From: Bacteroidota bacterium
Lineage (GTDB): Bacteria > Bacteroidota > Bacteroidia > M30B66
Reading direction: 5' to 3'
Assembly: GCA_947460255.1 (NCBI GenBank)
Contig: CANHIS010000020.1
Coordinates: 1-47,128, forward strand
Length of the DNA stretch: 47,128 nt
The notes beneath the pieces were generated by a model. That model did not search any database, was not told where the DNA came from, and saw only the letters and a program-made list of their open reading frames with translations. The position numbers and the translations under genes were made by a program. This document shows positions 9,549 to 45,210 of this stretch, piece by piece; the first letter of the stretch is position 1; each line of letters starts with the position of its first letter.

Positions 9549-9700
9549 TTAACTACATCGAGTGGCTAAATTATTTTTCAATTAAAACTTAATGAACTAG
9601 GTTAACTTAAAAAAAAAACATGTTTCCAAACAAATGAACCAAAATGATTTGGTTTTTATACATGTCTGAGTTCTGAATACGAAATACAGCAAAAAAATAT

Positions 9701-9833
9701 TGTTAACGCTCCGAAAACTTTAGCTTCGAGGGTTTCAGGATTCGAATGTATCAAACAACAGAACACTGACTTCCAAACAACTTGATGACTTCAGAAACAC
9801 AAATGCCAGCGTTACGCAAAGCAGTTGTTAGCA
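9701..9833 (-). repeat. attC-like palindromic repeat, solo copy
   Basis: Reading on the minus strand it begins with the core GTGCTAAC, then an arm CTTTGCGTAACGC. The shared centre (CATCAAGTTG, then TTTGATACATT) and a tail CCTGAAACCC follow, and it closes with GCGTTAACA (a GTTRRRY-like core). The two ends are imperfectly complementary. It lies 120 bp past the stop of 9955-11238 in the same orientation, like the array copies at 24.7-38.1 kb. Confidence 0.7.
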
Positions 9834-9954
9834 CCTGCAACTTTTCGAAATTCTTCATGAGCGAATTCAACAACTGTTTGATGTTCAATCTTTTTTCGTT
9901 TCCAATTTCAGATAAAATTCGACAAGTTTATATTTACTTGGATGCCACAGAACA

Positions 9955-11238: not shown

Positions 11239-11588
11239 ATCCAACTACAAATTAACGCAACAGATTCAATAGGTTAAAACCATGAACCCCAAAACTATAA
11301 AAATGTCTAATACAAACCTTTATGTATTTCTTGAACTTGTCTTGGAAAACATACAAATATTGAGCAGTAGTAATACAAACAGTTGTTTCCGCTAAAGTTT
11401 TGCAGTATACCCGAAGATTTGGATTGGTGAACGAAACCTTTCAATTTGCAAAATCTCCAAATTTCGTTTAGCTGCATTTATAAGCTGCCGTTCGTCAAAA
11501 TGGTTTCGCAACTTTGTTATTGATTATCTAAAATAATTCTGATTATTCGATCATTTTCCAATGATACCATTTAAAGAAGAACCCAGCT
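11239..11588. other. gene-free stretch
   Basis: About 350 bp between two minus-strand genes. A weak inverted arrangement around 11400-11530 recalls the attC-like repeats but lacks their conserved centre, so it is not called. Confidence 0.4.
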
Positions 11589-13134: not shown

Positions 13135-16100
13135 ATGAAGAATTTAGTTTTAATTATTTCGGTATTTATTACCATTCAACTATCTGCCCAATTAACGGTT
13201 CCCCAATCAGGTGTCAATAATTACACAGTTTGTGCAGGTTCTTTGTACGATTCTGGTGGAGAATTTGGGAATTACGGTAATAACTCAAATGGATATACGG
13301 TGCTTAATCCGAGTACTCCAGGAAATATGGTACAGATCGGTGGTACGCTCAATGGGGAGAACTGCTGCGATTTCATGCAAATATTCAATGGTGCAGGATT
13401 GGGTGGGAATTTACTTTGGTCGGGAAATACTTCCGTTGGAACGGTGCCAATAATTACATCCACAGTAGGGCCATTAACGGTGCAGTTTATTTCCAATGGT
13501 AGTGTCGTTGGAACTGGCTTCGTCTTGGATATTATTTGTGTTCCACCAGCAACACTCACCGTACCTGAAACAGGAGTGAATAATTACACAGTGTGTTCAG
13601 GTACTTTATACGATTCTGGTGGACCATCAGGCGGTTACGCCAACAATTCTAATGGATATACAATTCTCAACCCGAGCAATCCGGGCTATATGATGAGAGT
13701 AAATGGAAGTTCCCTCGGGGAAAGTACCTTCGACGTTATCCAAATCTACAATGGAGCTGGATTAACAGGCAACTTGCTCTGGGAGGGTAGTCCCGGTATT
13801 GGCTCTATTCCGACCATTACATCCACCGCAGGGCCATTAACAGTGAAATTCACCTCGAATTCAAGCAATACAGGAAATGGATTTGCCCTAGATCTCATCT
13901 GTTTACCTCCAACAACCTTCACAGTTCCAACATCAGGCGTCAATACCTATACTGTTTGTTCGGGTACTTTATATGATTCGGGTGGTCCTTTTGGAAATTA
14001 CAGCGACAATACAAGCGGATATACAGTGCTCAATCCAAGCAATCCAGGAAACATGGTGCAGATCGGTGGTACGTTCAATGGACAGAACTGCTGCGATTTC
14101 ATGCAGATATTCAATGGCGCTGGATTGGGTGGGAATTTACTTTGGTCGGGAATAGCATCTCTTGAAGGCGTCCCAACTATCACATCCACGGTAGGGCCGT
14201 TAACTGTGCAATTTATTTCCAACGGGAACACGGTTGGAGCAGGCTTCGCTTTGGATATAAACTGCTTACCTCCTGCGACTTTAACAGTACCTGTATCAGG
14301 AGTAAACTCTTACACAGTTTGCTCAGGTACTTTATACGATTCGGGTGGACCATCAGGCTCTTATGCCAACAATTCTAATGGATATACGATTCTCAATCCG
14401 AGCAATCCGGGTTACATGATGAGGTTAAGCGGAAGTTCCATCGGAGAAAATGTATTCGACGTTATCCAAATCTACAATGGAGCTGGCCTTACTGGAAACT
14501 TGCTCTGGGAAGGCAGTCCAGGCTTGGGTTCTATTCCAACCATCACATCCACCGCAGGGCCATTAACAGTGAAATTCACCTCAAATTCTAGCACTACAGG
14601 AAACGGTTTCGCTTTGGATTTGATTTGTTTACCTCCAACAACCTTCACCGTTCCAACATCAGGCGTGAATACCTATACAGTTTGCTCGGGTACTTTATAT
14701 GATTCGGGTGGTCCTTTGGGAAATTACAGCGACAATTCAAGCGGATATACAGTGCTTAATCCAAGCAATCCCGGAAATATGGTGCAGATTGGTGGCACGT
14801 TCACCGGACAGAATTGCTGCGATTTCATGCAGATATTCAACGGAGAAGGATTGGGTGGAAATTTACTTTGGTCGGGAAACACATCCGTTGGGACGGTACC
14901 AACCATTACATCCACGGCAGGGCCGTTAACTGTGCAGTTTTCTTCCAATGGAAATATCGTTGGAACGGGCTTCGCTTTAGATATTAACTGTTTACCTCCT
15001 GCGACTTTCACGGTTCCGGCAACAGGTAACAATGAATACACGGTATGTTCAGGTATTTTATACGATTCGGGTGGACCATCGGGCTCATACGCCAACAATT
15101 CTAATGGTTATACGATCCTCTACCCTAGTAATCCGGGCTATATGATGAGGGTAAACGGAAGTTCCATCGGGGAAAATGTATTCGACGTTATCCAAATTTA
15201 CAATGGAGCCGGACTTACAGGAAACCTACTCTGGGAAGGCAGTCCAGGCTTGGGCTCTATTCCAACCATCACATCCACCGCAGGGCCATTAACAGTGAAA
15301 TTCACATCGAATTCAAGCACTACAGGAAATGGATTCGCCTTGGATTTGATTTGCTTACCTCCAACTACCTTCACCGTTCCAACATCAGGCGTCAATAGTT
15401 ATACAGTTTGCTCGGGCACTTTATATGATTCGGGTGGACCGCTTGGAAATTACAGCGACAATTCAAGCGGATATACAGTGCTTAATCCAAGCAATCCGGG
15501 AAACATGGTGCAGATAGGTGGTACTTTCACCGGACAGAGCTGCTGCGATTTCATGCAGATATTCAACGGAGAAGGATTGGGTGGAAATTTACTTTGGTCT
15601 GGAAATACTTCCGTTGGGTCGGTACCAACCATTACATCCACGGCAGGGCCTTTAACCGTGCAGTTTATTTCCAGTGGAAGTATCGTTGGAGCAGGCTTCG
15701 CCTTGGATATTAATTGTGTACCTCCGACAACTTTCATCGTACCAGCATCAGGCAACAATGAATACACGGTGTGTTCGGGTACCTTATATGATTCGGGTGG
15801 ACCATCAGGCTCTTACGCCAACAATTCTAATGGATATACGATTCTTTATCCAAGCAATCCGGGCTATATGATGCGGGTAAGCGGAATTTCCTTGGGAGAA
15901 AGTGCCTCCGATGTTATCCAAATTTACAACGGAGCCGGACTTTCAGGAAACTTGCTCTGGGAAGGAAGCCCTGGCTTGGGCTCTATCCCAACCATCACAT
16001 CCACCGCAGGGCCTTTAACAGTAAAATTCACTTCAAATTCCAATACAGTAGGAAATGGATTTGCCTTGGATCTCATTTGTATTGCTCCAACTAACTTCAC

Positions 16101-17604
16101 CGTTCCAACATCTGGAGTCAATAGCTACTCAGTTTGCTCGGGTACTTTGTATGATTCGGGCGGTCCATTTGGAAATTACAGCGACGATTCAAATGGATAT
16201 ACAGTGCTCAATCCCAGCAATCCTGGAAGTTTGATGCAAATCGGTGGAACGTTCACGGGACAGAACTGCTGCGATTTTTTGAATATATTCAATGGCGTAG
16301 GATTGGGTGGAAATTTACTTTGGTCTGGAAATGCTTCCGTAGGATCGGTACCTACCATCACATCCACGTCGGGGCCGTTAACGGTGCAGTTTCTATCCAA
16401 TGGAAGTGTTGTTGGAACGGGCTTCGCCTTGGATATTAACTGTTTACAAACATCGAGCTGCACGCCCACTATTTTCATCAGCAGCAGCCAAGGCACGAGT
16501 ATTTGTGTGGGCCAGGAAGTAGTTTATTCTGCATCCATCAACAATGGAGGTACAAGCCCCACTTACCAATGGAAACGCAACGGCAACATTGTAGGCACCT
16601 CACCTACTTACACCAGCAGTTCGATCATCAATGGCGATGTAATCACCTGCGAACTCACCAGCAATGCATCCTGCGCCAGTGTTAACGTGGTTGTTAGCAA
16701 TTCGCTCAATATGGTCGTAAACAGCTTCGCAACGCCAAGTTTCACCCAAGTAACAGCCATCTGCGCAGGCGCAACACTGCTACCATTGCCCACCACATCG
16801 AACAACGGGATTTCCGGATCATGGACGCCATCCATGAACAACAACACAACCACGACTTACACCTTTTCCCCTAACGGGGGACAATGTGGCACGACCGCAA
16901 CAATGACCATTGGAGTAAATCCGAATACAACGCCAAACTTCACACCAGTGGGGCCTTTCTGCGCAGGACAGTTCATTGCGCCACTTCCCGCTACATCGCT
17001 CAACGGGATTACGGGCAACTGGTCGCCGGCCATAAACAATTCAGTAACTACCACTTACACCTTTACCCCTAGCGGGGGACAATGTGCCTCTCCAACAACC
17101 ACGAGCATCGGAATTAATACAAACCCTTCGGTAGCCATTACATTCGATGGGGCGCTGCTCACAACGGAAGCTGGATTCACTGATTATGCTTGGACCATCA
17201 ACGGAAACACCATTCTGGGAGCCAATACAAACGAAACCTTTGTGGGTGAAGTTGGACTTTACACCGTTACAGTGACCGATGCCAATGGATGCACTGCAAC
17301 AGCTTCGTTTGATGTACAAATTGTTGGATTAGCCGACCTTGGTTTAGGCGATGCAATTGCCATTTTCCCTAATCCGAGCAATGGAAGTACGACATTAAGC
17401 ATTCAATTGTTGGAAGCACAACAAGTAAGCCTCATGATTCTTGACATCCAAGGAAAAATTCAATTCCAACATAATTACGCCTTCAAATCAGGCAAAAACG
17501 AGGTGCTCATCGACCTCAGCACATTGGCTGATGGGGTGTATTTTGTGCAATTAGAAAATTCGAATTTCAAACACACAAAACGGTTGGTGAAGTTGGAGAA
17601 TTAA
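13135..17604 (+). CDS. giant T9SS-secreted protein with nine CUB-like repeats
   Basis: This 1489-residue surface or secreted protein starts at the ATG at 13135, which opens a signal peptide (the frame to 13084 begins at a TTG). From 13195 to 16461 there are nine repeats of exactly 363 bp (121 residues), alternating type A (CCDFMQIFNGAGLGGNLLW) and type B (FDVIQIYNGAGLTGNLLW). Each has VCSGTLYDSGG, GYTVLNPSNPG, TITSTAGPLTV and GFALD, a CUB-domain-like pattern. An Ig/PKD-like segment, two CAGA-LPATSNGITG-type repeats and a final Ig-like domain follow. The C-terminal type A sorting domain (IFPNPSNGSTTLSIQLLEAQ) directs type IX export. A role in adhesion or binding at the cell surface is inferred. 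Confidence 0.85.
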   Translation: MKNLVLIISVFITIQLSAQLTVPQSGVNNYTVCAGSLYDSGGEFGNYGNNSNGYTVLNPSTPGNMVQIGGTLNGENCCDFMQIFNGAGLGGNLLWSGNTSVGTVPIITSTVGPLTVQFISNGSVVGTGFVLDIICVPPATLTVPETGVNNYTVCSGTLYDSGGPSGGYANNSNGYTILNPSNPGYMMRVNGSSLGESTFDVIQIYNGAGLTGNLLWEGSPGIGSIPTITSTAGPLTVKFTSNSSNTGNGFALDLICLPPTTFTVPTSGVNTYTVCSGTLYDSGGPFGNYSDNTSGYTVLNPSNPGNMVQIGGTFNGQNCCDFMQIFNGAGLGGNLLWSGIASLEGVPTITSTVGPLTVQFISNGNTVGAGFALDINCLPPATLTVPVSGVNSYTVCSGTLYDSGGPSGSYANNSNGYTILNPSNPGYMMRLSGSSIGENVFDVIQIYNGAGLTGNLLWEGSPGLGSIPTITSTAGPLTVKFTSNSSTTGNGFALDLICLPPTTFTVPTSGVNTYTVCSGTLYDSGGPLGNYSDNSSGYTVLNPSNPGNMVQIGGTFTGQNCCDFMQIFNGEGLGGNLLWSGNTSVGTVPTITSTAGPLTVQFSSNGNIVGTGFALDINCLPPATFTVPATGNNEYTVCSGILYDSGGPSGSYANNSNGYTILYPSNPGYMMRVNGSSIGENVFDVIQIYNGAGLTGNLLWEGSPGLGSIPTITSTAGPLTVKFTSNSSTTGNGFALDLICLPPTTFTVPTSGVNSYTVCSGTLYDSGGPLGNYSDNSSGYTVLNPSNPGNMVQIGGTFTGQSCCDFMQIFNGEGLGGNLLWSGNTSVGSVPTITSTAGPLTVQFISSGSIVGAGFALDINCVPPTTFIVPASGNNEYTVCSGTLYDSGGPSGSYANNSNGYTILYPSNPGYMMRVSGISLGESASDVIQIYNGAGLSGNLLWEGSPGLGSIPTITSTAGPLTVKFTSNSNTVGNGFALDLICIAPTNFTVPTSGVNSYSVCSGTLYDSGGPFGNYSDDSNGYTVLNPSNPGSLMQIGGTFTGQNCCDFLNIFNGVGLGGNLLWSGNASVGSVPTITSTSGPLTVQFLSNGSVVGTGFALDINCLQTSSCTPTIFISSSQGTSICVGQEVVYSASINNGGTSPTYQWKRNGNIVGTSPTYTSSSIINGDVITCELTSNASCASVNVVVSNSLNMVVNSFATPSFTQVTAICAGATLLPLPTTSNNGISGSWTPSMNNNTTTTYTFSPNGGQCGTTATMTIGVNPNTTPNFTPVGPFCAGQFIAPLPATSLNGITGNWSPAINNSVTTTYTFTPSGGQCASPTTTSIGINTNPSVAITFDGALLTTEAGFTDYAWTINGNTILGANTNETFVGEVGLYTVTVTDANGCTATASFDVQIVGLADLGLGDAIAIFPNPSNGSTTLSIQLLEAQQVSLMILDIQGKIQFQHNYAFKSGKNEVLIDLSTLADGVYFVQLENSNFKHTKRLVKLEN
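13195..16461 (+). repeat. tandem array: 9 x 363 bp (4.5 x 726 bp) coding repeat
   Basis: Repeat starts fall at 13195, 13558, 13921, 14284, 14647, 15010, 15373, 15736 and 16099, always 363 bp apart with no indel. Odd and even units form two subtypes, so the true unit is an A-B pair of 726 bp; units of the same subtype are near-identical at the DNA level. This points to recent duplication of pairs or ongoing homogenisation. Confidence 0.9.
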
Positions 17605-17610
17605 TAGCAA

Positions 17611-17748: not shown

Positions 17749-17867
17749 CAACAGCATAGAAAATCGTTAATAATCAATACACAAATCTGTAGGCTTGCAA
17801 ACAGAAAAAAAACAGGGCGAAACCGAAAAGCCAAATGAGTAGGACAATAATTAATTAAAATAATAAA

Positions 17868-19433
17868 ATGAAGTTTTTCTTAAGCTTTTTACTGATTGCA
17901 TTGTGTAGTACAAAAACGGATGCGCAAGCGTGTTTTTCTGCGGCTACGAACTTTCCAGCAGGTTCGAGCCCTTGGATTGCTACCAGCGCCGATTTTAATG
18001 GAGACGGTTTTATGGATGTTGCAGTTGCGAATTTTAGTTCTGGCAATTCTATTTCGGTTTTGTTAGGCAGTGGATCGGGCAGCTTTTCTGCACCCTCTAA
18101 TTTCACAGCTGGAACAGATCCTTCTTCAATTACAAGTTCTGATTTTAATGATGATGGCAATATGGATTTAGCAGTTGCGAATCTAACTTCCAATAATGTT
18201 TCAATATTATTAGGGAATGGTTCAGGGAATTTTGCAGCCAGCACTAATTTCTCAGCAGGAATAAATCCAAGTGGCATAACCAGTGCCGATTTTAATGGAG
18301 ATGGGAAGAAAGATTTAGCTGTTGCTAATTTCACTTCAAACAATGTTTCAATATTGCTCGGCAACGGATTGGGAAGTTTCGCCGCAGCAACAAATTTTGC
18401 TGTAGGAACATCACCACAAACTATTGTTAGTACTGATTTTAATGCAGATGGAAATATGGATTTAGCAACTGATGGTAGCAATGTATCTGTAATAATTGGG
18501 AATGGACTTGGGAGTTTTGCAGATTTTACCACCTACACTGTAACTGGTGGAGCATATTCAATTGTGAGTGGCGATTTTAATGGAGATAATGCGATTGATT
18601 TAGCTGCAGCTGAAAAACCATCAAATAATATCTCTGTATTCATAGGAAATGGATCGGGCAGTTTTGATCCGGCAATCAATTTTACAGTTGGCACAGGACC
18701 AGAGTCGGTTATAGCTGCCGATTTTAATGGAGATGGCAATTTGGATTTAGCAACAGCAAATTATACATCAAATAACTTATCGGTATTGATGAACAATGGA
18801 TTAGGAAGTTTTGCTCCAGCCACTAATTTTTCTGTCGGAATAGCACCCACATCAATTGTAAGTGCTGATTTTAATGAAGATGGTAAAATGGATTTATTGA
18901 CAACGAATGCAAATTCAAATAACGTAAGCGTATTGCTTAATTTTATTCCAATTGTAACAGCTACAGTGAATGATGCTACAATTACGGCAGACCAAAATGA
19001 AGCCTCATACCAATGGTTAGATTGCAATGGATTTTCACCTATTTCTGGAGAAACAAATCAAAGTTTTAACCTAACTGCCACAGGAACCTATGCTGTTATT
19101 GTAACTCAAAACGGCTGTTCTGATACTTCAGCTTGTTACAGCATCAATACTGTTGGAATTGTTGAAAATAGTACTTCCGATGCTATTGACATTTTCCCTA
19201 ATCCGAGCAATGGTAACACTACCTTAAGCATTCAATTGTTGGATGCACAACAGGTAAACCTCATGATTCTTGACATCCAAGGAAAAATTCAATTCAAACA
19301 AAATTACTCCTTCAAATCAGGCAAAAACGAAGTGCTCATCGACCTCAGCAAATTGGCCGATGGGGTGTATTTTGTTCAATTAGAAAATTCGAATTTCAAA
19401 CACACAAAACGGTTAGTGAAGTTGGAGAATTAA
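17868..19433 (+). CDS. T9SS-secreted VCBS/FG-GAP repeat protein
   Basis: This 521-residue protein has a signal peptide (ATG at 17868) and seven repeats of about 48 residues from residue 25 to about 360. Each carries a calcium-loop motif of the DFNGDGxxD type followed by LAVANxxSNNVSVLLGNGxGSF, which is the VCBS/FG-GAP pattern and predicts a beta-propeller. A short Ig-like segment (about residues 365-420) precedes a type A T9SS sorting domain. The sorting domain is almost the same as that of the upstream 1489-residue protein, and the DNA match continues to the stop codon. Surface display with a binding role is inferred; no enzyme domain is seen. Confidence 0.85.
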   Translation: MKFFLSFLLIALCSTKTDAQACFSAATNFPAGSSPWIATSADFNGDGFMDVAVANFSSGNSISVLLGSGSGSFSAPSNFTAGTDPSSITSSDFNDDGNMDLAVANLTSNNVSILLGNGSGNFAASTNFSAGINPSGITSADFNGDGKKDLAVANFTSNNVSILLGNGLGSFAAATNFAVGTSPQTIVSTDFNADGNMDLATDGSNVSVIIGNGLGSFADFTTYTVTGGAYSIVSGDFNGDNAIDLAAAEKPSNNISVFIGNGSGSFDPAINFTVGTGPESVIAADFNGDGNLDLATANYTSNNLSVLMNNGLGSFAPATNFSVGIAPTSIVSADFNEDGKMDLLTTNANSNNVSVLLNFIPIVTATVNDATITADQNEASYQWLDCNGFSPISGETNQSFNLTATGTYAVIVTQNGCSDTSACYSINTVGIVENSTSDAIDIFPNPSNGNTTLSIQLLDAQQVNLMILDIQGKIQFKQNYSFKSGKNEVLIDLSKLADGVYFVQLENSNFKHTKRLVKLEN

Positions 19434-19868
19434 TAGCCTTTTAAAATCTGAAAACTTGATCTAATTGATTTTACAATTGCCCTGGGGAAACTTGCGATAA
19501 TTGGTTTATTGAACTCACTCCTACTCTGTTTTTTGGGTACTTTTTTCATAACAAAAAAGCACCCGAAAAGTCGAGGAAAATTTAATGCTGCCCCGTGCTC
19601 TTAAAAACTTCAAGAAAGACTTACAAACTATCATGTAGGATTTTGTTGTCTTTCTAAGCAGTTTGGAATTCACCCCTGCGCACCCTCGCGCATTTTCCAA
19701 AGCCACCGCTCTTTGGATCTCGGTAAAGGTGTTTTTTTGGGTGGCAAGTTGGGCATGCAATCAAGTCAGAGAATTGAAATACATGCCATCAAAAATGTCC
19801 TGCGGAACACTAGCGATAAAAATGATTGATAAAAAAGATAAATTTGAATAAATTAAATTGATGTTATC
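19434..19868. other. intergenic repeats
   Basis: About 435 bp of repeat-like DNA after the VCBS gene. It holds a diverged CAAGTG-type hairpin near 19470, the second ACTTTTTTCATAAC-type repeat (19533-19600), a GC-richer block (about 19670-19760) and another TGTCCTGCGGAACAC copy near 19795. The minus-strand open frame across 19521-19760 follows repeat DNA and is not called. Confidence 0.5.
19533..19600. repeat. second copy of ACTTTTTTCATAAC repeat
   Basis: GGGTACTTTTTTCATAAC, AAAAAAGCACCCG, AAAAGTCGAGGAAAAT and AATGCTGCCCCG occur in the same order as in 12911-12985. The centre is an imperfect palindrome (GTACTTTTTT with AAAAAAGCAC). Confidence 0.5.
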
Positions 19869-20027
19869 TTGAAAAATTCTGAAATAAAGGAAATTCGAAA
19901 TCAAATAATTGAGGCCATGAAAATTTCAGCTCAGAAATTGATTGCTAAAAAGAAAAGTTTAGGCCAAAGTATTGTTATTAGTGAAGATGGCAAAATTCAA
20001 GTTATTGAAGGCAATGATTTGAATTAG
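19869..20027 (+). CDS. small cassette-like ORF, about 52 residues, unknown
   Basis: The reading frame runs from a TTG at 19869 (no ATG upstream in frame before a TAA at 19854) to a TAG at 20025. The product is basic and helical in its first two thirds, with KISAQKLIAKKKSLGQS followed by a short strand-like tail (IVISEDGKIQVIEG). I do not know the family. An attC-like repeat begins right after the stop in the same orientation, which supports a real cassette gene. An internal ATG at 19917 would give only about 36 residues. Confidence 0.5.
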   Translation: MKNSEIKEIRNQIIEAMKISAQKLIAKKKSLGQSIVISEDGKIQVIEGNDLN

Positions 20028-20032
20028 ATTAT

Positions 20033-20163
20033 AAGGTCAGCCGGCAAAAGCAGATTTCGTCATGTGCACTTGGGAAAATCAAGTTGCTAGGAGATTTACG
20101 TTTCATTTGATACATTGTAGCACTTAAACCCACGCTGCACTATGCCTCAAAACGCCATTAGCT
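20033..20163 (+). repeat. attC-like palindromic repeat, plus orientation
   Basis: It starts 5 bp past the stop of the small ORF. The conserved centre is clear (AATCAAGTTGCTAGGAGATT, then CATTTGATACATT), with tail ACCCACGCTGCA and an end CGCCATTAGCT. The first core is poorly conserved. Orientation is opposite to that of the 24.7-38.1 kb copies and matches the plus-strand gene. Confidence 0.6.
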
Positions 20164-20238
20164 AGCATAACTGCCATCAATGGAATATCTACTTAAAACC
20201 CAAAAAATAAAGTAATACGAAATCAAATTTAAATCAGT

Positions 20239-20736
20239 ATGAAGACAGAGCATCAGTATAGTGCAACAATTAAGTGGACTGGAAACAATGGAACAGGAAC
20301 AGATAATTATAAAAATTATCAGAGAAGCCATCAGATATTAATAGAAAATAAATCGATTACTTTGGGTTCGTCAGACTCTGCATTTAGAGGTGATAAAACA
20401 AAACACAATCCAGAAGATTTATTGGTCGCTTCATTGTCTTCTTGTCACATGCTTTGGTATTTACATTTGTGTTCAGAAGCAGGTGTTATAGTTCTGGAGT
20501 ATGAAGACAACGCAACAGGTACGATGACTGAAACAAAAAATGGAGGTGGGAAATTTACCGAGGTAACACTTAATCCAATTGTAATTGTAAAGGAACCTTC
20601 AATTTTTGATAAAGCCATTGAATTACATCAAAAAGCAAACGAATTGTGTTTTATTGCAAATTCTGTAAATTTCCCGGTTCACCACAAACCTACTATTCAA
20701 GTAATTAACGACCATGACAATCAAGAAAATCATTGA
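20239..20736 (+). CDS. OsmC-family protein (peroxide-reducing thiol enzyme relative)
   Basis: This 165-residue cytoplasmic protein of the OsmC/Ohr superfamily includes members that reduce organic hydroperoxides with two cysteines. Both expected cysteines are present: C69 in LVASLSSCHMLWYLHLC and C137 in ANELCFIANSVNFPVHHKP. The layout, with an N-terminal beta region, a central helix at the first Cys and C-terminal KPTIQV, fits. It lacks the exact Ohr motifs, so the YhfA/OsmC branch is likelier. It overlaps the downstream DUF2834 gene by 23 bp. The pair sits between two attC-like repeats in one orientation, like a two-gene cassette. Confidence 0.85.
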   Translation: MKTEHQYSATIKWTGNNGTGTDNYKNYQRSHQILIENKSITLGSSDSAFRGDKTKHNPEDLLVASLSSCHMLWYLHLCSEAGVIVLEYEDNATGTMTETKNGGGKFTEVTLNPIVIVKEPSIFDKAIELHQKANELCFIANSVNFPVHHKPTIQVINDHDNQENH

Positions 20737-21067
20737 TAACAAGCATTATTTCTATCTTCTACTAACATTAATTGGTGGCGGATTTACCTTTTATTATGCC
20801 ATGCTTGGTATAATTGAGCATAAAGGAAAATTCGACAGTATAGAATTCATTACCAGTACCTGGACAAATAATTACTATGCTAAAAGCTTAACCTTAGATT
20901 TTTGGACAGGAGCAATAGCTGGAACATTTTTCATTGTTTTGGAGGGCTTTCGTTTAAAAATGAAACGAATTTGGTTGTATATAATCTTAACCATTTTTGT
21001 TGCATTTGCTTTCGGTTTCCCATTGTTCTTATACATAAGAGAGCTTCATTTAAAAAGAAAATCCTGA
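20714..21067 (+). CDS. DUF2834-type membrane protein
   Basis: This 117-residue protein has about three hydrophobic helices (residues 13-33, 59-79, 85-108) and the LDFWTGAIAGTFFIVLEGFR pattern that I associate with DUF2834. It ends in a basic tail, LHLKRKS. The function of the family is unknown. Its start lies inside the OsmC gene (23-bp overlap), so it is translationally coupled and probably part of the same cassette. Confidence 0.65.
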   Translation: MTIKKIIDNKHYFYLLLTLIGGGFTFYYAMLGIIEHKGKFDSIEFITSTWTNNYYAKSLTLDFWTGAIAGTFFIVLEGFRLKMKRIWLYIILTIFVAFAFGFPLFLYIRELHLKRKS

Positions 21068-21111
21068 TTCGATTAATTTATCTAGGCTATAAACATTTTG
21101 AAAAGCAGTAG

Positions 21112-21242
21112 AGACTTATGCAAGCCAGAAAAGCGATTTTCGCTACGCAGACATAGGAAGATCAAGCTGCTTGGAGATCTCTATGCATTGTGATACATTA
21201 GAGATCTGATTGATGCTTAGCTTAAACTGCATTCAGTTATTG
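21112..21242 (+). repeat. attC-like palindromic repeat, plus orientation
   Basis: It follows the OsmC/DUF2834 pair by about 45 bp. The centre ATCAAGCTGCTTGGAGATC and GTGATACATTAGAG are conserved. It ends in CAGTTATTGC, close to the GTTATGC-like cores of the array. The next gene starts 45 nt later. Confidence 0.65.
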
Positions 21243-21287
21243 CAAATTACCAGTGAAAACCAATTAATAATAAACTAATAAATAAAT

Positions 21288-22697: not shown

Positions 22698-23083
22698 GCA
22701 CGGCTTTTAAAACTGCATAGCCTTTTCGAATTCTCCCGAATGACCAAAGACTGGGAATTTGTAATTCAAATGACTTATAGCGCCAAGCCTTATGAAAAGT
22801 AGGAACTGATGAAGCGGTTTGCTTTGTACCCTCTTTTCAGAAAATTAAAAACCCCGTACAGGTTTTGTACAGGGTTTTCAGAATATTGAAAAAGGGGTAC
22901 AGGCGTGTTTTGATATGCCATTAACAAAACCTAGATTTCTTAAGACGCAACCTTTTAATGCATTGCCGTTTATCTCGGGAAGCTAAGCCTAATTAAAACA
23001 CATCAAAGCGAACAAAGAACACCTAACAATATGACGAGTACTAGAGCTTCAAACTCCCGCTTAATGATAAGCGCAAGGACATA
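22698..23083. other. convergent intergenic region with terminator
   Basis: About 385 bp between the plus-strand hydrolase and the minus-strand T9SS gene, which end towards each other. It holds one strong hairpin (22848-22878); the rest shows no gene or attC-like repeat. Confidence 0.55.
22848..22878. terminator. strong hairpin, likely bidirectional terminator
   Basis: AAAACCCCGTAC pairs with GTACAGGGTTTT across a 7-nt loop (one mismatch). It has A-rich and T-rich flanks and lies between convergent genes. Confidence 0.7.
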
Positions 23084-23731
23084 CTATTCCTTCACTACTT
23101 TAAATACATTTCCTAAATTATTACCAATTTTAATTAAATACATTCCTTTAGAAAAACTACTCATATCAACGGACGTGCTTTCAGACATTAGCTTTCCCGT
23201 AAGCATTAACTTGCCTGTAAAATCATATACAAAGAAGCTGTTTCCAACTTGGCTTAGTTTTGTTTGAATTTGAACCTGATCTACTGCCGGGTTGGGATAA
23301 ATGGAAATTTTATCTAATCGTTGAGACAATTGAGCAGAAGCTGTGTTTTCGCCGAATACTAACAAGCATGTATCGTTATTTAAATTCTCGTCACCATATA
23401 CAAATGCTATTGTTAATGGCTCACAAGCTAAAGATCCACTCATGGTGATTGGATAAGCTAAGGTTGATTGCCCCACTTGACCAAAAACAAAAATATCTCC
23501 AGTCGCTACAGTATCTCCATTGCAGTCGAGTACTGCTGCAACAAATGGGTAATTAATGAAAACACTTTCCGCTGCATTAAATTGAATGCTCACAGAATAC
23601 TCGTTTGGGTTAAGCGTATCTGGATTTACTTCTATCACAGAAAAATCAGAGCAATTCGCCAATTGCCCCCAAAATGTGGAACAGCTGTTTAAAATGATAA
23701 ACACTGTAAGAATGAAGGATTTATTTTTCAT
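23084..23731 (-). CDS. T9SS-secreted protein of unknown function
   Basis: This 215-residue protein has a signal peptide (MKNKSFILTVFIILNSC), a single beta-sandwich-like domain of about 110 residues with two Cys-containing turns (LDCNGDTVATGD, SLACEPLTIAF), and a C-terminal type A sorting domain (ISIYPNPAVDQVQIQT, then FSKGMYLIKIG). It is predicted to be exported by the type IX system. No function is recognised. It lies 110 bp past the AraC-type gene on the same strand. Confidence 0.7.
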   Translation of the reverse strand: MKNKSFILTVFIILNSCSTFWGQLANCSDFSVIEVNPDTLNPNEYSVSIQFNAAESVFINYPFVAAVLDCNGDTVATGDIFVFGQVGQSTLAYPITMSGSLACEPLTIAFVYGDENLNNDTCLLVFGENTASAQLSQRLDKISIYPNPAVDQVQIQTKLSQVGNSFFVYDFTGKLMLTGKLMSESTSVDMSSFSKGMYLIKIGNNLGNVFKVVKE

Positions 23732-24725: not shown

Positions 24726-24756
24726 TCAGTGATTAAAGTTTATCTATTTAGGTTGC

Positions 24757-24887
24757 TCTAAATCTTTAATGGCTTTGCGCATCCCAGATTTCAGAGTCTG
24801 CATCAAAAGTAAGGTAAACTTCCTAGCAACTTGATGGCCTTTAGCACCTCAAATGTACGCGTTGTGCAAAACCGCAGTTTTAGTTAT
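24757..24887 (-). repeat. attC-like repeat after barrel gene (array end)
   Basis: Minus-strand reading: AAATAACT core at the barrel gene's stop codon, arm GCGGTTTTGCACAACGCG, centre CATCAAGTTGCTAGGAAG and TTTTGATGCA, arm ATGCGCAAAGCC, and end GATTTAGAGC (diverged from GTTRRRY). Confidence 0.7.
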
Positions 24888-25559
24888 TTATTGTTTTGTG
24901 AGTGCACATTTCATTCCTATCGTTAAATTCATTCCGTTATGTTGTAATTTACTATTTGCAAGGTAGTCGGAATTTGAAATTGTCGTAAAGCTATATTGAT
25001 ATGAAAACGAGGTAAACAACCAATATCGGCCACCAAATTTATAACCACCACCAATTTCAACTAAACCCGCAAAATCGAATTTCGAAGCACGATTGGTCAC
25101 GTCAAAAGTTTCTTTTCCCGATAACTTTCCGACGGTGTCGAAAACTGGTATTGTTGTCTTGGCGTCAACGAGCAAGGATGGAATAACTCCGATATTTGTA
25201 AACCCATAAAACTTAGTTCCAATATTTAATCCAGTCTTTATTGGAAGTGAAACGTAGTCATAGTTGAAAGTCATAATAAATATTTCACCTGTTGGGTTTC
25301 CTAAATTGTCGGTGAATACAATGTCGTTTGAAAAACCCCGCTGATTGTAAATCAAGTCAGCACCAATTGAAAAATGTTTCTTAATTAAAAATTCGTAGGT
25401 CAGTCCCGCAGTCAGACCTGTCCTTGAGTAGTTTTGACTTGAAAAATTACTCGAAGTAATATTTGTCGAGTTAGCACCACCCTTCAATCCAATAAGGTGA
25501 TTTTGTCCAGCAACTTTTATAGTTGAGAATGTCAAAATGATTAATACTATAATTTTCAT
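24888..25559 (-). CDS. outer-membrane beta-barrel (PorT-type) protein, cassette gene
   Basis: This 223-residue protein has a signal peptide ending VAGQ and strand-rich sequence through to the end (LIGLKGGANSTNI, then LTAGLTYEFLIKKHFSIGADL and GMNLTIGMKCAL). This is the outer-membrane beta-barrel/PorT-type pattern of Bacteroidota. Its ligand is unknown. The stop codon abuts the attC-like repeat at 24757-24887, and the start is about 30 nt from the preceding repeat, leaving no room for much of a promoter. Confidence 0.75.
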   Translation of the reverse strand: MKIIVLIILTFSTIKVAGQNHLIGLKGGANSTNITSSNFSSQNYSRTGLTAGLTYEFLIKKHFSIGADLIYNQRGFSNDIVFTDNLGNPTGEIFIMTFNYDYVSLPIKTGLNIGTKFYGFTNIGVIPSLLVDAKTTIPVFDTVGKLSGKETFDVTNRASKFDFAGLVEIGGGYKFGGRYWLFTSFSYQYSFTTISNSDYLANSKLQHNGMNLTIGMKCALTKQ

Positions 25560-25589: not shown

Positions 25590-25718
25590 TTGGCTATAAT
25601 GGTCCACTGCTTAGCGTAGCTAATGCATCAATGCATCAAAAGTAACGGCAATCTCCATGCAATTTGATGACTTATAGAACCACAAATCCGAGCGTTGAAA
25701 AATATCGCTTTATGTGGC
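25590..25718 (-). repeat. attC-like repeat after OmpA-domain gene
   Basis: Minus-strand reading: GCCACAT core, CAACGC, centre GTCATCAAATTGCATGGAG and CTTTTGATGCATT, ending in GCCAATT. Cores and arms are weaker than in other copies but the centre is clear. Confidence 0.6.
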
Positions 25719-25731
25719 ATGTTACTTTCAT

Positions 25732-26205
25732 TTAGCGAACCATGGTCACTTTAAATTCTATTCGTCGATTAATGGCATGTGCATTTTCCGATTTACTAAT
25801 GTCCATATTTTCAATTGTCTTTTCATCAATAATTGGTTTAGTTTTCCAATATCCTTTGGCTGACAATCTATCAGACTCGATCCCTTTAGAAATGAGATAA
25901 TTCACAATACTTTCAGCTCTTCGCTGATCAAAACGAAGGCTGGATTTATCACTTGCTCTTGCATCAACGTGCACACCAACTTCGATTTCGAGTTGGTTAT
26001 TTAATTTCAAAAAATCTGCAATGCTGTCTAAATACAAAAAACTTTCGGGCCGCAAAACAGACGAATTCAGTTCAAAGCAAACGCAATTAGTGACTCTATA
26101 AACATTGCCAACTAGAAATTTGGTATCACTTAGCTTATAAGTTTGTCCATTTGCAAAATTTGACAGAAAAAGCAGCCCTAGAAATACAATAATTGATCTG
26201 AGCAT
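25732..26205 (-). CDS. OmpA-C-terminal-domain protein, cassette gene
   Basis: This roughly 157-residue periplasmic protein starts at the ATG at 26205, which opens a signal peptide (MLRSIIVFLGLLFLSNF). The longer frame to 26295 would read through the attC-like repeat, so it is rejected; an ATG at 26226 is a weaker alternative. The body is an OmpA-like peptidoglycan-binding domain with FELNSSVLRPESFLYLDSIA, VGVHVDARASD, and FDQRRAESIVNYLISKGI then INRRIEFKV. It would tether the envelope to peptidoglycan. It has the compact spacing of the other cassette genes. Confidence 0.8.
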   Translation of the reverse strand: MLRSIIVFLGLLFLSNFANGQTYKLSDTKFLVGNVYRVTNCVCFELNSSVLRPESFLYLDSIADFLKLNNQLEIEVGVHVDARASDKSSLRFDQRRAESIVNYLISKGIESDRLSAKGYWKTKPIIDEKTIENMDISKSENAHAINRRIEFKVTMVR

Positions 26206-26222
26206 TGCTGCTTTAAAATAGT

Positions 26223-26353
26223 ACATAACGTTTTGCTGGATGGATCTGTTCGGGATAGCTGTCTCAAATGTATCAAAGTGAACGGAGATTTCCAATTAAC
26301 TTGATGATCATGAGAACTTGAGATGACTGAATTGCGTTAACCACTTGTTAGCG
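26223..26353 (-). repeat. attC-like repeat after metallopeptidase-like gene
   Basis: Minus-strand reading: CGCTAAC core, arm GTGGTTAACGCAATTC, centre GATCATCAAGTTAATTGG and TTTGATACATTTGAG, and end ACGTTATGT. Length 131 bp. It is about 95 percent identical to the copy at 27698-27828. Confidence 0.78.
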
Positions 26354-26362
26354 GTAGTAATT

Positions 26363-27670
26363 TTATCTTTTTTTAGTTTTAAACTTAATTGAATACGGTA
26401 CTATCCTGTTACCTCCATCTTCTTTTGCGAAATTTGAAATTATTAATTCGTAAGTTTTATTTGGTTGTAGGTCTTCTACTTCAAAAGTGTATCGTTTTTT
26501 GTCATCAGACCAACCAATGTGCTTTTTAATAACCAAGCGCTCTACCCCTTTTGCTTCACCATAATCAATGCTTCTACAACAATTACTCATTGGTTCAGAA
26601 AATTCTATTGTAATTGTTTTGAGTTTGGATGAGACCTTTTTACTTCCGTTTTCAAATTCCACCAATCGTTTAACAGTTGGTCTCATTGATTCGTACTTGA
26701 TTTCGATTTCTTTTATTGTCAATGGTAAAAAGTTCATACCGTCAACCAACTTTGCAAATTTTTCTTCATCGTTATAATCAAGTTCTATCAAGTCTTTAAT
26801 TGCTGCCTTCTTATCTGCTGCATTGTTATAATACCTTTCACAAATTTCATAGCCGATATAGTAGCCTAAATCATTTACTTTTAATTCGTTCTGGTTTTTA
26901 TTCCATATCCAATTCCAAACATCTTCATTTCTGAATATTTCTACCATATATCTTCTCAGAACTTTTTCAGCGTTTTGTTTACCATAAATTACAGGTGGTG
27001 ATAAAGGCTTTTCTGTAATCAAAGTTGAAATAAACTCCGCAACACCTTCTGCTACACAAAGATGTATTATACTTTGATTTTCCCAACTTTTTTGTTGAGT
27101 ATGAATATATTCGTGAATTGTCGTTAGTGGAATGTCATAAGGTGCATATTCTTTAATTGTATTTTTAATACGTTCGGGAAGTTCTTCTAAAACCGCATTT
27201 TTTTGAGCAAGCATAAATTCAGCACCAAGAAGAACTTTGTTGCCATCATAAGTTCCCCCGGTTCTAAATGCACCTATTGAAAAATAAATAGTAGCAGGTT
27301 TAAGTTCTGGATAAATTTCTTTCAACTTATTGAGGTACTTTTCAATTTGCTCTCTATTTTCTAAGATAAATGATGAATTACCTCTGATAGAGTTCCAATA
27401 TTTCGGATAATTTATAATGTTGCTAATAAATTCATAATCCTGATAATGCCTCACAGATATTAAACCTTTTAAACCTTCTGTTGCTTTGTTAATATATAGT
27501 TCGTTTATAATTTTAATTCTTTCTAAACTGTCAGATGATTTATTTATTTGGTCAAAAGCGAACCAAAAATTGTCTATGTCTGAAGTAACAATCTGTTTTT
27601 TGAAGTCTTGTCCAATAATTGTATTATATCCAAGAATCAAAGTAAATATAATATAAGCAATTCTTATCAT
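26363..27670 (-). CDS. HExxH metallopeptidase-like protein with Ig-like domain, cassette gene
   Basis: This 435-residue exported protein (signal peptide ending IIGQ) has a zinc-peptidase motif H186-E-Y-I-H190 followed by VAEGVAEF (E208 and E212 are candidate third ligands). That is the gluzincin arrangement. Residues about 330-432 form an SbsA/Big_5-like Ig domain (LKTITIEFSEPM, then DLQPNKTYELIISN). The substrate is unknown. The gene lies between two almost identical attC-like repeats, 9 bp from the downstream one and 28 nt from the upstream one, so it is a textbook single-gene cassette in layout. A true peptidase role is likely but unproven. Confidence 0.72.
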   Translation of the reverse strand: MIRIAYIIFTLILGYNTIIGQDFKKQIVTSDIDNFWFAFDQINKSSDSLERIKIINELYINKATEGLKGLISVRHYQDYEFISNIINYPKYWNSIRGNSSFILENREQIEKYLNKLKEIYPELKPATIYFSIGAFRTGGTYDGNKVLLGAEFMLAQKNAVLEELPERIKNTIKEYAPYDIPLTTIHEYIHTQQKSWENQSIIHLCVAEGVAEFISTLITEKPLSPPVIYGKQNAEKVLRRYMVEIFRNEDVWNWIWNKNQNELKVNDLGYYIGYEICERYYNNAADKKAAIKDLIELDYNDEEKFAKLVDGMNFLPLTIKEIEIKYESMRPTVKRLVEFENGSKKVSSKLKTITIEFSEPMSNCCRSIDYGEAKGVERLVIKKHIGWSDDKKRYTFEVEDLQPNKTYELIISNFAKEDGGNRIVPYSIKFKTKKR

Positions 27671-27697
27671 CTATTCTGTGGTTGTAGTGAGTATCAC

Positions 27698-27828
27698 CGC
27701 AAACGTTTTGCTGGATGGAGCTGTTCGGGAAAGCTGTCTCAAATGTATCAAAGTGAACGGAGATTTCCAATTAACTTGATGATTATGAGAACTTCAGATG
27801 ACTGAATTGCGTTGACCAGTTGTTAGAA
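27698..27828 (-). repeat. attC-like repeat after MORN-repeat gene
   Basis: Minus-strand reading: TTCTAAC core four bases past the stop of the gene, arm ACTGGTCAACGCAATTC, the same centre as 26223-26353, and end ACGTTTGCG. Length 131 bp. Confidence 0.78.
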
Positions 27829-27832
27829 GTAG

Positions 27833-28384
27833 TTAATAATTCTCCTGTCTTATTATCTCGTTGGTCTTTGCGTTGTAATATTTCCATAAACCAAATTTGT
27901 TCCCTTGCTTATATTCACCTTCAAACAAAATATTTCCATTATTGAACCACTCATACCATTTTCCGCTTTTCTGACCATTGAAATACATTTCAATCTTCCA
28001 GAGTTGTCCATTTGGATGCCACCAAATAGATTGTTTTAGAGTATTGTTATTGTCAAGGTAGATGTCTTCCAGAAATTTATTTCCTTTATTATCGAAAAGA
28101 AACCTGTCTGTAGCTATGTTGTTTTTATATCGAATTACGGCTTTTAGTTTTTGTGTCGAATAGAAACTACTATCCACATGCAGAAATCCATCTTTGTAAT
28201 GAGAAAATTTAACTTCATTTTCAGATGTTGTTTTAACAATACCGTTAAATAGTTTATCTCCTTTTTGGGTAAAAGTTGTGTCGTGTCGAACTGCCAACAT
28301 ACTATCCCGTTGAGAAAACTCAATTGTTTGTCCATTTAACTGAACCAGTATGATGGTTAATATTATGGTTATTGTCGTCTTCAT
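27833..28384 (-). CDS. MORN-repeat (YwqK-like) protein, cassette gene
   Basis: This 183-residue protein has a signal peptide and several MORN_2-type repeats in its second half (WWHPNGQLWKIEMYFNGQKSG, KWYEWFNNGNILFEGEY, KQGNKFGLWKYYN). Such proteins are called YwqK-family antitoxins in annotation, but here the signal peptide points to export, so the toxin-antitoxin label is doubtful. The start codon lies about 10 nt from the upstream attC-like repeat and the stop 4 nt from the downstream one, the tightest cassette in the window. Confidence 0.72.
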   Translation of the reverse strand: MKTTITIILTIILVQLNGQTIEFSQRDSMLAVRHDTTFTQKGDKLFNGIVKTTSENEVKFSHYKDGFLHVDSSFYSTQKLKAVIRYKNNIATDRFLFDNKGNKFLEDIYLDNNNTLKQSIWWHPNGQLWKIEMYFNGQKSGKWYEWFNNGNILFEGEYKQGNKFGLWKYYNAKTNEIIRQENY

Positions 28385-28393
28385 TAAATTACT

Positions 28394-28524
28394 GCTAAAG
28401 GTCCTGCGGCTTTTCGCAGCGAGGGTTTCAGGGCTCTAATGTATCAAAAGAGACGGGATTTTCCAAGCAACGCGATGACTCTTTGAAACACAAAACCCCG
28501 CGTTGCGCAAAGCCGATGTTAACG
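28394..28524 (-). repeat. attC-like repeat after DUF6688-like gene
   Basis: Minus-strand reading: CGTTAAC core, arm CGGCTTTGCGCAACGCGG, centre GTCATCGCGTTGCTTGGA and TTTTGATACATTAGAG, arm CGCTGCGAAAAGCCG, end CTTTAGC. The arms are nearly perfect complements, giving the clearest hairpin of the set. Length 131 bp. Confidence 0.8.
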
Positions 28525-29622: not shown

Positions 29623-29688
29623 TTTTATTAATCTACGTTCATTGATATGTACATGATTTAAGGCTTATTAATGTCTTCTAAACTTGCC

Positions 29689-29819
29689 GTTAAAGGACCG
29701 GCGCTTGGCAGCGTTCGAGATAAGGTTTCTCAAATGTACATTTGGAAACGCAAACTTCCAAGCAACTTGATGATTATAGGTACTTCAGATGCACGAATTG
29801 CGCTAACCAATTGTTAGGC
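29689..29819 (-). repeat. attC-like repeat after frameshifted gene
   Basis: Minus-strand reading: GCCTAAC core (which contains the gene's TAA stop), arm TTGGTTAGCGCAATTCG, centre ATCATCAAGTTGCTTGG and ACATTTGAG, arm CGCTGCCAAGCGC, end CTTTAAC. Length 131 bp. Confidence 0.78.
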
Positions 29820-30331
29820 ATAGTATTTTTTACTCAGTTGTCTGTATTTTATTGGGGCATAAAGCTTTAATTTACTGTAAACTAAATATTTTAATAATTT
29901 ATCATAAGTCCTAAATGATTTTCTGAATTCAATATGTCGTCTGTCAACGAAAATATATTCAAATCCTTTGTCATTTTTATTAATGAAAAATCCGTCGGTC
30001 AAATTCTGAGGGTCAAATCGCATTTTATTTTGTAAATCCTTTGTCGCGAGATGTTGATAGTAATTGTCGGGGGCAATATTTATATAGTGATCTAAAAGTC
30101 CTGTCGGAATGAATTTAAATTGGGTTAAGGTCGACAGATAGCTTGTATTTTCATTGTCAAGAATTTCAAATTGTTGAATGTCTGTTAAGTTTGGATAACC
30201 AATGAGTTTGTGGGCGGTAATATGTCTTTGTATTTAATTTCGTATTTTTTATGGAAAAAGTAAATAACAACTTTAATGTATAAAAAGAGCGCCAGCACAA
30301 GTGAAAGAAATATGATTACTATAGTCCACAT
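29814..30331 (-). pseudogene. single-TM protein of unknown function, frameshifted cassette gene
   Basis: The ATG at 30331 opens a frame with a strong N-terminal membrane helix (MWTIVIIFLSLVLALFLYI), then a basic stretch to KYKDILPPT. Around 30210-30217 (CCGCCCAC on the minus strand) the frame must change, and the following frame runs without a stop from HKLIGYPNLTDIQQF to the stop at 29816. A one-base deletion is the simplest explanation. The joined product would be about 172 residues, with a cytoplasmic or periplasmic tail of unknown family. The stop TAA is part of the GCCTAAC core of the following attC-like repeat. A sequencing error is possible. Confidence 0.62.
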
Positions 30332-30388: not shown

Positions 30389-30450
30389 CCCACCTCTCCT
30401 TATTCTCCAAATTCAAATTGCATTTCTGGGTGAAGTAATTTACGGTATTG

Positions 30451-31633: not shown

Positions 31634-31653
31634 ATAGCGAAATTGGGGAGGTG

Positions 31654-31784
31654 GGCTAACTGTCCGAGGCATTGCGCTGCGTAAGATTCAGAGAACTACG
31701 AAATCAATCAAAACTCAAATCTTCTAGTAACTTGATGAAATTCAGAACCACAAAGCCCCACTTTGCTCAAAACCGCTGTAATCA
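31654..31784 (-). repeat. attC-like repeat after beta-lactamase-fold gene
   Basis: Minus-strand reading: TGATTAC core (diverged), arm CGGTTTTGAGCAAAG, centre TTCATCAAGTTACTAG, arm CGCAGCGCAATGCC, end AGTTAGCCC, a good GTTRRRY-type core. Length 131 bp. Confidence 0.72.
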
Positions 31785-31791
31785 GAAGTTG

Positions 31792-33279: not shown

Positions 33280-33313
33280 TTAGGTATATTATCTGCTGTC
33301 ATGTAACAATTAC

Positions 33314-33443
33314 TCCCAACGATCCGAGACTTTACTTAGCGAGGGTTACTGGGCTCTAATGTATCAAAAATTACGGCAATCTCCATGGAATTTGATGTCT
33401 TTAGAATCACATTTACCCGCGTTACTTAAAACCGCTTCTAGCT
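33314..33443 (-). repeat. attC-like repeat after 33459-34100 gene
   Basis: Minus-strand reading: AGCTAGA core, arm GCGGTTTTAAGTAACGCGGG, centre GACATCAAATTCCATGGAG and TTTTTGATACATTAGAG, arm CCTCGCTAAGTAAAG, end CGTTGGGAG. Length 130 bp. Confidence 0.76.
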
Positions 33444-33458
33444 AAATATTTTCTTCAA

Positions 33459-34100: not shown

Positions 34101-34109
34101 AAAATTGCT

Positions 34110-34237
34110 GCTAAATGTCTGTGGCTTTAGGATGCTGGGGTTGTAGGTCTCTAATGTATGAACGAAACGCAAATATCCTAGAAATTTGATGACTTTAGGA
34201 ACACATTTACCCGCGTAGAGCAAAACCGATGTTAACT
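34110..34237 (-). repeat. attC-like repeat after the four-gene block
   Basis: Minus-strand reading: AGTTAAC core, arm CGGTTTTGCTCTACGCGGG, centre GTCATCAAATTTCTAGGA and CATACATTAGAG, arm AGCATCCTAAAGCC, end ATTTAGC. Length 128 bp. Confidence 0.76.
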
Positions 34238-37516: not shown

Positions 37517-37560
37517 TCTTATTTGTCTAATCTTTTAGTCTAGGGTGTTTAAAATGCTTG

Positions 37561-37690
37561 CAGGAACTGTTCACGGCTTTGCGCAGCGCGGATTTCAGGG
37601 CTCTAATATATCAAAAGTACAGCAATCCCCAAGCAACTTGATGCCTTTTAGAAACACAAATACCTGAGTTTCGCAAAAACGCTATTAGCA
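37561..37690 (-). repeat. attC-like repeat after 37703-37936 gene
   Basis: Minus-strand reading: TGCTAAT core, arm AGCGTTTTTGCGAAAC, centre GGCATCAAGTTGCTTGGGG and CTTTTGATATATTAGAG, arm CGCGCTGCGCAAAGCCG, end AGTTCCTG. Length 130 bp. Confidence 0.76.
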
Positions 37691-37702
37691 GTAATTGTTT
37701 CT

Positions 37703-37950: not shown

Positions 37951-38082
37951 TGCCAACGTTTCGTTATTTAAAGCTTTTCAGGACAGCTTACTCAAATGCA
38001 TCAATTGAATATCGATTTTCCAAGCTTCCTTGATCTTTCTAAAGACCTCAAATTCCCAAATAGCATTAAATAAATGTTATGC
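37951..38082 (-). repeat. attC-like repeat after 38097-38783 gene (first of the array)
   Basis: Minus-strand reading: GCATAAC core, centre AGATCAAGGAAGCTTGG and TTGATGCATTTGAG, end AACGTTGGCA. Both cores are good (GCATAAC and GTTGGCA); the arms are weaker. Length 132 bp. Confidence 0.72.
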
Positions 38083-38783: not shown

Positions 38784-38830
38784 TGTCTTTTCATTTTTAA
38801 GTTCCAGATTCGAAGTTGTTGTGTCGTCAA

Positions 38831-43578: not shown

Positions 43579-43589
43579 TTGTAGCACCT

Positions 43590-43719
43590 GCTCACATCGA
43601 TTTTGATCGATACTGGCATTTAATGCTCAATGAGTCATCAAGTTGCTTGGGAAAAATCAACAGTGTTTTAAAAACAACACTGTACAAAGCGGCGGAACGA
43701 TGATACACTCTTGATGCCT
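43590..43719 (+). repeat. degenerate attC-like repeat after toxin gene
   Basis: The centre AGTCATCAAGTTGCTTGGGA at 43632-43651 is a clear match in plus orientation, and GATGATACACTCTTGATG near the end is partly like the shared centre. Cores are not clear. It lies just past the toxin gene. Confidence 0.4.
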
Positions 43720-45069: not shown

Positions 45070-45076
45070 ATGTTTT

Positions 45077-45167: not shown

Positions 45168-45210
45168 AAAAATAATAAACTAATCTCATTAACCTGATTA
45201 AAATTAAGCT

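Follow-up and report, generated by a model that had tools for sequence, protein, structure and literature searches.

Chromosomal integrons, among them the Vibrio superintegron with its VCR sites, are arrays in which one gene alternates with one attC site, and the attC sites are similar within a genome. The locus described here shares both traits. A domain specific to the integrase IntI is described as necessary for integron recombination in PMC9668308. In Treponema, an integrase and an array that point in the same direction are known (PMC4909258, PMC3607928). Complete integrons are described as nearly absent from the Bacteroidetes. A 2022 survey names Salinibacter ruber as the one member of this group with a complete integron, and reports Chlorobi and Ignavibacteriae as further carriers (PMC9024848); a review counts Bacteroidota among the phyla with integrons (PMC8618304). 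A literature search, mainly of open-licence PMC papers without preprints, found no account of an integrase lacking the IntI-specific domain together with attC arrays.

The stretch of DNA analysed here (the window, 47,128 nucleotides from a Bacteroidota bacterium) carries a repeat of about 120-135 nt, each copy of which begins just 3' of a same-strand gene's stop codon. The repeats are very probably the attC sites of a chromosomal integron, in which a gene or small operon together with its repeat forms a cassette, and which is served by a non-canonical recombinase found across the Bacteroidia.

Direction and anatomy of the repeats

In the window, a profile seeded with six repeat copies detected 14, with E values from 3.7e-41 to 3e-7. 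A wider profile set raised this to 17, three on the plus strand (20042, 21123 and a partial copy at 43588) and 14 on the minus strand (Table 1). Sixteen of the 17 share the strand of the gene ending just 5' of them, and no copy lies on the opposite strand. The last (33317-33442 in this set, 33313-33445 in Table 1) is 16 nt from a gene on its own strand (33459-34223, minus) that the gene caller had missed. The initial annotation had proposed that the repeats flip with gene orientation, citing a small plus-strand ORF (52 aa, 19869-20027) and the OsmC/DUF2834 pair (20239-21067, plus), each followed by a plus-strand repeat (20042-20163 and 21123-21244). Both examples are as described, and with the missed gene counted the rule holds for every copy in the window.

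Copies also occur elsewhere in the genome. A sequence-only model built from 13 window copies was matched 41 times at E<=1e-3, and the matches are spread over 12 of the 246 contigs that make up the 4.13-Mb assembly. Repeat direction was then compared with that of the upstream gene within 150 nt, the count that the annotation had proposed genome-wide, here in 14 stretches around these matches, the window included, and with genes taken as simple longest-ORF calls. For 50 copies the 5' neighbour was on the same strand in 41 cases and on the opposite strand in one; eight had none. The sole opposite-strand neighbour is a 61-aa ORF, perhaps no real gene. About equal numbers in the two directions, which would have spoken against the proposal, are far from what these stretches hold. 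Where the flanking genes differ in direction, five copies agree with the 5' gene and one disagrees. The median distance from stop codon to repeat is 15 nt in the same 50 copies. Orientation by itself is no proof of a moving unit, because an element of the 3'-UTR would track genes too. The further suggestion that gene plus repeat is what moves draws its support from the attC anatomy and covariation, from an integrase platform in which attI lies ahead of the arrays, and from a cassette common to two contigs.

The repeat is bounded by CTAACA at the gene side, where TAAC corresponds to the R'' box, and by CGTTAG at the far side, where GTTA corresponds to R'; complementary, imperfect arms lie between them. 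At least five arm subfamilies occur, which differ in sequence and keep their complementarity. The C before GTT is invariant in the alignment of sites (A4) and matches a feature of known attC bottom strands, the conserved spacer G beside the R' box described in PMC2727003. Thirty sites from this genome and its relatives gave an 18-pair hairpin in which 98% of arm cells are standard pairs. With the partner slid by 1 to 3 columns at most 43% are paired, a comparison that favours the hairpin since it was derived from the same 30 sequences. Compensatory cells, in which both sides are changed, numbered 88 compared to 23.8 in shuffles, and 0 of 500 shuffles reached as high; this count does not depend on the derivation alone, with the caveat that the sequence subfamilies may represent few independent compensatory events. 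With these boxes and arms, the repeats are predicted to be attC-type integron sites.

State of preservation varies. Better preserved copies than those of the window are found on contigs C136, C180, C166, C63 and C2, where both R boxes are intact in 18 of 22 copies, as against 5 of 17 in the window and 3 of 11 elsewhere in the genome. Because so few window copies have both boxes, the window is probably a decayed array, an old and mostly degraded part of the cassette repertoire. Single window copies mostly fold no better than shuffles; the arms show interruptions, and single sites fold ambiguously. RNAalifold gave no consensus pairs for 13 decayed window copies, so the search model made from them was kept to sequence only; structure emerged only from the intact copies of the arrays.

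Table 1. Predicted cassette genes and attC-like sites of the window
Positions	Strand	Feature	Remarks
9699..9834	-	attC-like site	R boxes both intact
11391..11449	-	partial attC-like remnant	subfamily s4; 26 bits
19869..20027	+	52-aa ORF, TTG start, plus-strand cassette	no Pfam match
20042..20163	+	attC-like site	degenerate R boxes; internal deletion
20239..20736	+	OsmC gene, plus-strand cassette	homologue in relative G004, then attC of other subfamily
20714..21067	+	DUF2834 gene	cassette shared with OsmC
21123..21244	+	attC-like site	internal deletion of same kind as 20042-20163
22949..23072	-	decayed attC-like site	3' of T9SS-tail gene 23084-23731
24754..24885	-	attC-like site	3' of OMP beta-barrel gene 24888-25559
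25592..25716	-	attC-like site	3' of OmpA-domain gene 25732-26295
26221..26354	-	attC-like site	subfamily s2; R boxes both intact; 3' of gene 26363-27670
27696..27829	-	attC-like site	subfamily s2; 3' of gene 27833-28384
28391..28524	-	attC-like site	subfamily s1; 3' of DUF6688 gene 28537-29622; strongest hairpin among six window sites folded
29686..29820	-	attC-like site	subfamily s3; 3' of ORF 29814-30023
31652..31785	-	attC-like site	3' of beta-lactamase-fold gene 31792-33279
33313..33445	-	attC-like site	3' of gene 33459-34223
34107..34237	-	attC-like site	3' of gene 34272-34667
37559..37691	-	attC-like site	3' of ORF 37703-37936
37953..38079	-	attC-like site	3' of gene 38097-38783
43588..43707	+	partial attC-like site	3' of PIN-domain gene 43147-43578 (+)

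Several other features of the window were observed. No Rfam family matches the repeat; the sole match in the window is a DUF805 RNA (RF03081, 66.4 bits) at 17782-17849 (+), just 5' of a repeat-containing ORF (17868-19433). Nine tandem units of 363 nt, of two alternating similarity classes, occupy 13192-16395 within a 1506-aa ORF (13084-17604). Two 287-nt stretches, 17322-17608 and 19151-19437, are 89% identical and form the ends of neighboring ORFs; they are probably copied secretion-tail domains. A second short repeat (CCTGCGGAACACTTGCGA-like) has three clear copies, at 12992, 17704 and 19769 (+), between genes for secreted proteins, and shows no match to the attC-like profiles. Arrays of 7- and 14-nt units (TTTAGTA, AAAGGTG) are found near the edges of the cassette region at 30441-30588, 38828-38982 and 45060-45189. 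Homology with the close relative G001 ends within the second of these, and the contig of G001 stops about 0.8 kb past the aldehyde-dehydrogenase/MaoC gene that flanks the window array, with no homology in that part.

The recombinase and its platform

A Pfam scan of 40 window proteins revealed no recognisable integrase. The protein of this genome that comes closest to the integron-integrase family is a recombinase of 373 aa on contig C2 (2159-3280, minus). Recombinase, two genes, an attC site (141-269) and the contig end follow one another there in one direction. Arrays of such sites are found on other contigs, with nine sites in 8.5 kb on C136, six in 6.2 kb on C166 and four in 4.8 kb on C180. 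Because the C2 platform carries one attC before its contig ends, it is the site subfamilies in common that tie it to these arrays and to the window. Relatives show more of the arrangement. In G004 the recombinase is followed by a site, an aminotransferase gene, a site, another gene, a site, a gene with a T9SS tail, and a site at the contig end; in G003 and G001 a site follows the recombinase. XerC, XerD and two further recombinases encoded in this genome (on C10, C43, C97 and C233) were passed over as candidates for the integrase, attC and attI adjoining the C2 recombinase. Contig C233 of G000 (L052) is short, its ORFs look G+C-rich, and its recombinase lies beside a second long ORF, which we take to be an IS91-type transposase; the contig is possibly contamination of the draft.

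Comparison of relatives points to the putative sites of exchange. Between G000 and G001, homology past the recombinase stop codon runs to AAGTAAGTTAG and then diverges. G004, G003 and G009 match one another up to ACAAACTAGTTA, a sequence overlapping the stop codon of the recombinase, and diverge from there on. These breakpoints at a GTT core behind the recombinase are read as attI sites. A further 28 related pairs were compared, some of them sharing a member, and in 19 homology extended more than 40 nt past the recombinase stop. It ended within 5 nt of GTT in both members of seven of these pairs and within 7 nt in one more; in the remaining 11 it ended away from GTT even by the loosest reading. 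Movement of cassettes is suggested by a gene end plus site present on both C136 and C63, identical at 156 of 162 positions up to the GTT of R' and at 29 of 49 beyond. This is one cassette in two contexts, with different followers and a break at the expected GTT. The OsmC gene of the window has a counterpart in G004 (74.7% DNA identity), which is followed at a distance of 35 nt by a site from another subfamily.

The recombinase itself carries the tyrosine recombinase domain PF00589 (Pfam E 2.3e-38 for the C2 protein), which is matched by all 14 members of alignment A3, and the R, K, HxxR, H and Y positions are conserved (alignment A2). Its score against TIGR02249, the IntI family, is 201.8 bits, below the curated cut-off of 265. 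The spacing from KGxxDR to LRHS (box II-III) is 64-70 residues in 73 family proteins (from 80 named loci, two without a usable ORF and 5 of the other 78 proteins without a spacing) versus 106 in six IntI (that of G147 and five others). IntI4 residues ~180-243 have no full counterpart in the recombinase, and the IntI-specific additional domain (patch III region) was not found in the family. The recombinase has not been filed as IntI because two defining features, the cut-off score and the domain, were looked for and neither is present; on these grounds it is considered no canonical IntI. In a tree, six IntI rows (5 of 25 fetched IntI loci plus G147) form one clade (100/100), 77 Bacteroidota-type rows stand beside them, and XerC and XerD are apart. 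IntI may lie inside or beside the recombinase family in this tree, which counts two changes for the Bacteroidota group and carries a warning of long branches. Records labelled as Bacillota and Spirochaetota (L150, L155, L159, L169) also hold relatives of the recombinase, and these relatives form a group in the tree.

In an AlphaFold2 model of a relative (mean pLDDT 79), the core is preceded by three modules of the form beta-beta-alpha-beta-beta-alpha, and the structures nearest the core are IntI4 (2a3v) and XerA (5hxy), along with 4a8e. HARP (PF07443) is matched by 4 of the 14 members, with a best E of 1.7e-5; member 1, at 22.5 bits, stays below the cut-off of 25. By sequence the HARP domain of SMARCAL1 (4o66) is the top structure at E 0.096, with a VIA Z of 4.6 and 3.7 A over 66 residues, and the comparison of XPB (5tnu) with the N-terminal modules gives Z 6.4 and 2.2 A over 57 residues; all of these values fall within what chance would give. 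MutS, CASTOR1 and eIF1-type proteins match the modules as well, and all of the fold matches are weak. Both HARP and the XPB domain bind DNA that is distorted or forked. The N-terminal modules might recognise attC hairpins.

The locus and its relatives show attC boxes with complementary arms, one co-directional site per cassette gene, and an attI at the integrase with GTT breakpoints, as integrons do. In the mechanism proposed, the recombinase would fold one attC strand into a hairpin, the folded attC would be exchanged with attI at G^TT, and whole cassettes would thereby be inserted behind the recombinase gene, in the recombinase's direction. That this protein carries out the recombination is what the position of sites and breakpoints suggests. 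The reversed cassettes of the window (19.9-21.2 kb) would have been inserted off-array or inverted later. IntI1 is described as inserting cassettes at non-classical genomic sites (PMC12901181), and off-site insertion of that sort could account for the window's reversed, scattered cassettes.

Distribution in the Bacteroidia and the question of a missing IntI

Matches to a profile of the recombinase family occur in 147 of 295 genomes of the class at E<=1e-55. Canonical IntI (TIGR02249 over its cut-off) was detected in 1 of the 295 and in 0 of 10 genomes of the family. It is common elsewhere, with 105 of 395 genomes in a sample of the phylum; among the matches listed, G147 is the only carrier from the Bacteroidia, the same as the one in 295. 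Genomes without matches were kept in the denominators.

Sites near these recombinases were sought with a detector based solely on TAAC, GTTA and arm pairing. Applied to 80 named records, it detected 29 sites over 305 kb on the downstream side of the recombinase; 523 kb on the upstream side yielded 6, and 903 kb of shuffled sequence yielded 3. Downstream sites occur at 14 of the named loci and are mostly 122-129 or 169-184 nt long; upstream sites occur at four, three of which have upstream sites only. For example, sites were found in Flavobacterium selenitireducens (6), a Flavobacterium MAG (5), Pedobacter glucosidilyticus (3) and Belliella kenyensis (2). No downstream site was detected at 66 of the 80 loci, in many cases because the contig stops there. 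Some of the siteless loci may be unrelated recombinases, and not every member of the family need be an integron integrase. In Sphingobacterium sp. CZ-2 (L161) and Empedobacter brevis (L166) the recombinase segment is 98.7% identical and attC-like sites lie on the upstream side only. A further 19 genomes, picked from the best profile matches and possibly overlapping the named records (e.g., G114/L167), yielded 34 sites from the 104 kb downstream and one from the 78 kb upstream, the sites lying at 12 of the 19 loci; the IntI control L208 was left out of these totals. The ORFs abutting 63 sites in other genomes are co-directional with the recombinase in 40 cases and reversed in three, and 20 sites have none. 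Among the 52 contigs of at least 20 kb, 13 stop no more than 1 kb past the recombinase on its downstream side and none does so on its upstream side, as would be expected if a repeat-rich array broke assembly. From these counts, the integron type with a domain-less recombinase appears to be spread across the Bacteroidia.

The same observations bear on an alternative in which the sites are true attC and the arrays were made by a canonical IntI, missed in draft genomes or since lost, with the domain-less recombinase as a bystander. The genome is a 246-contig draft of 97% completeness, IntI is frequent in the phylum at large, and the IntI-specific domain is the part reported in PMC9668308 as needed for known integron recombination. 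However, this alternative is improbable given the near-absence of IntI from family and class, the attI breakpoints directly behind the domain-less recombinase (two subtypes in the family and seven further pairs), the concentration of sites downstream of it, and the contigs that end on that side.

An integron worked by the domain-less recombinase remains the preferred reading. A more far-reaching version of it is offered tentatively, namely that the Bacteroidia own a separate integron class, widespread and overlooked by searches for the IntI domain, in which the domain-less recombinase recognises folded attC and N-terminal modules related to HARP/XPB replace the domain. An integrase without the defining part of IntI may explain why integrons look nearly absent from Bacteroidota. 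If true, gene capture in a major phylum relies on a separate system that has stayed hidden, its integrase not having the domain used to recognise IntI. The system would also allow the mobile gene pool of the Bacteroidota to be catalogued, and it poses a testable question, whether the IntI domain is essential for attC recombination or can be replaced by another module.

Site-only explanations and known systems

Less probable again is an explanation in which genes stay put, the repeat being a dispersed non-autonomous element of the REP/MITE type that inserts behind stop codons, or a selected 3'-UTR hairpin. The copies do lie 3' of genes, are palindromic and are partly dispersed over several contigs, but mobility of the site alone predicts neither attI breakpoints beside an integrase, nor a shared gene end and site with a break at GTT, nor one-site-per-gene arrays beside the integrase. 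The least probable reading, that hairpins placed right after stop codons in gene direction are transcription terminators, was dropped, as 12 terminator-like sites occur in window 19.5-38.5 kb against 9.9 in shuffles, just one of the 12 (28514-28494) has its G+C-rich stem and T run within a repeat, and neither TAAC/GTTA box conservation nor a length of ~126 nt is a terminator trait.

The putative attC sites and their recombinase can be set beside several known systems. The window resembles a CALIN, a cluster of attC sites lacking an integrase, in having many attC-like sites and no integrase recognised in its Pfam scan; it differs in that most of its sites are decayed and an integrase lies on another contig of the same genome. 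XerA and archaeal Xer proteins share the catalytic core and box spacing of the recombinase, and 5hxy and 4a8e are among its nearest structures, but the family described here is distinguished by adjoining attI and attC-like arrays and by its N-terminal modules. Compared to integrons of the Vibrio type, the integrase has no IntI-specific domain, carries N-terminal modules and is co-directional with the cassettes, and the classical extrahelical bases of attC, which set strand choice, were not identified in the sites. The co-direction of integrase and array is shared with the 'reverse' integron of Treponema denticola as described in the Treponema papers cited above. With the Vibrio superintegron the system has in common the R''/R' boxes, a hairpin conserved as structure, attI beside the integrase, and breakpoints at GTT.
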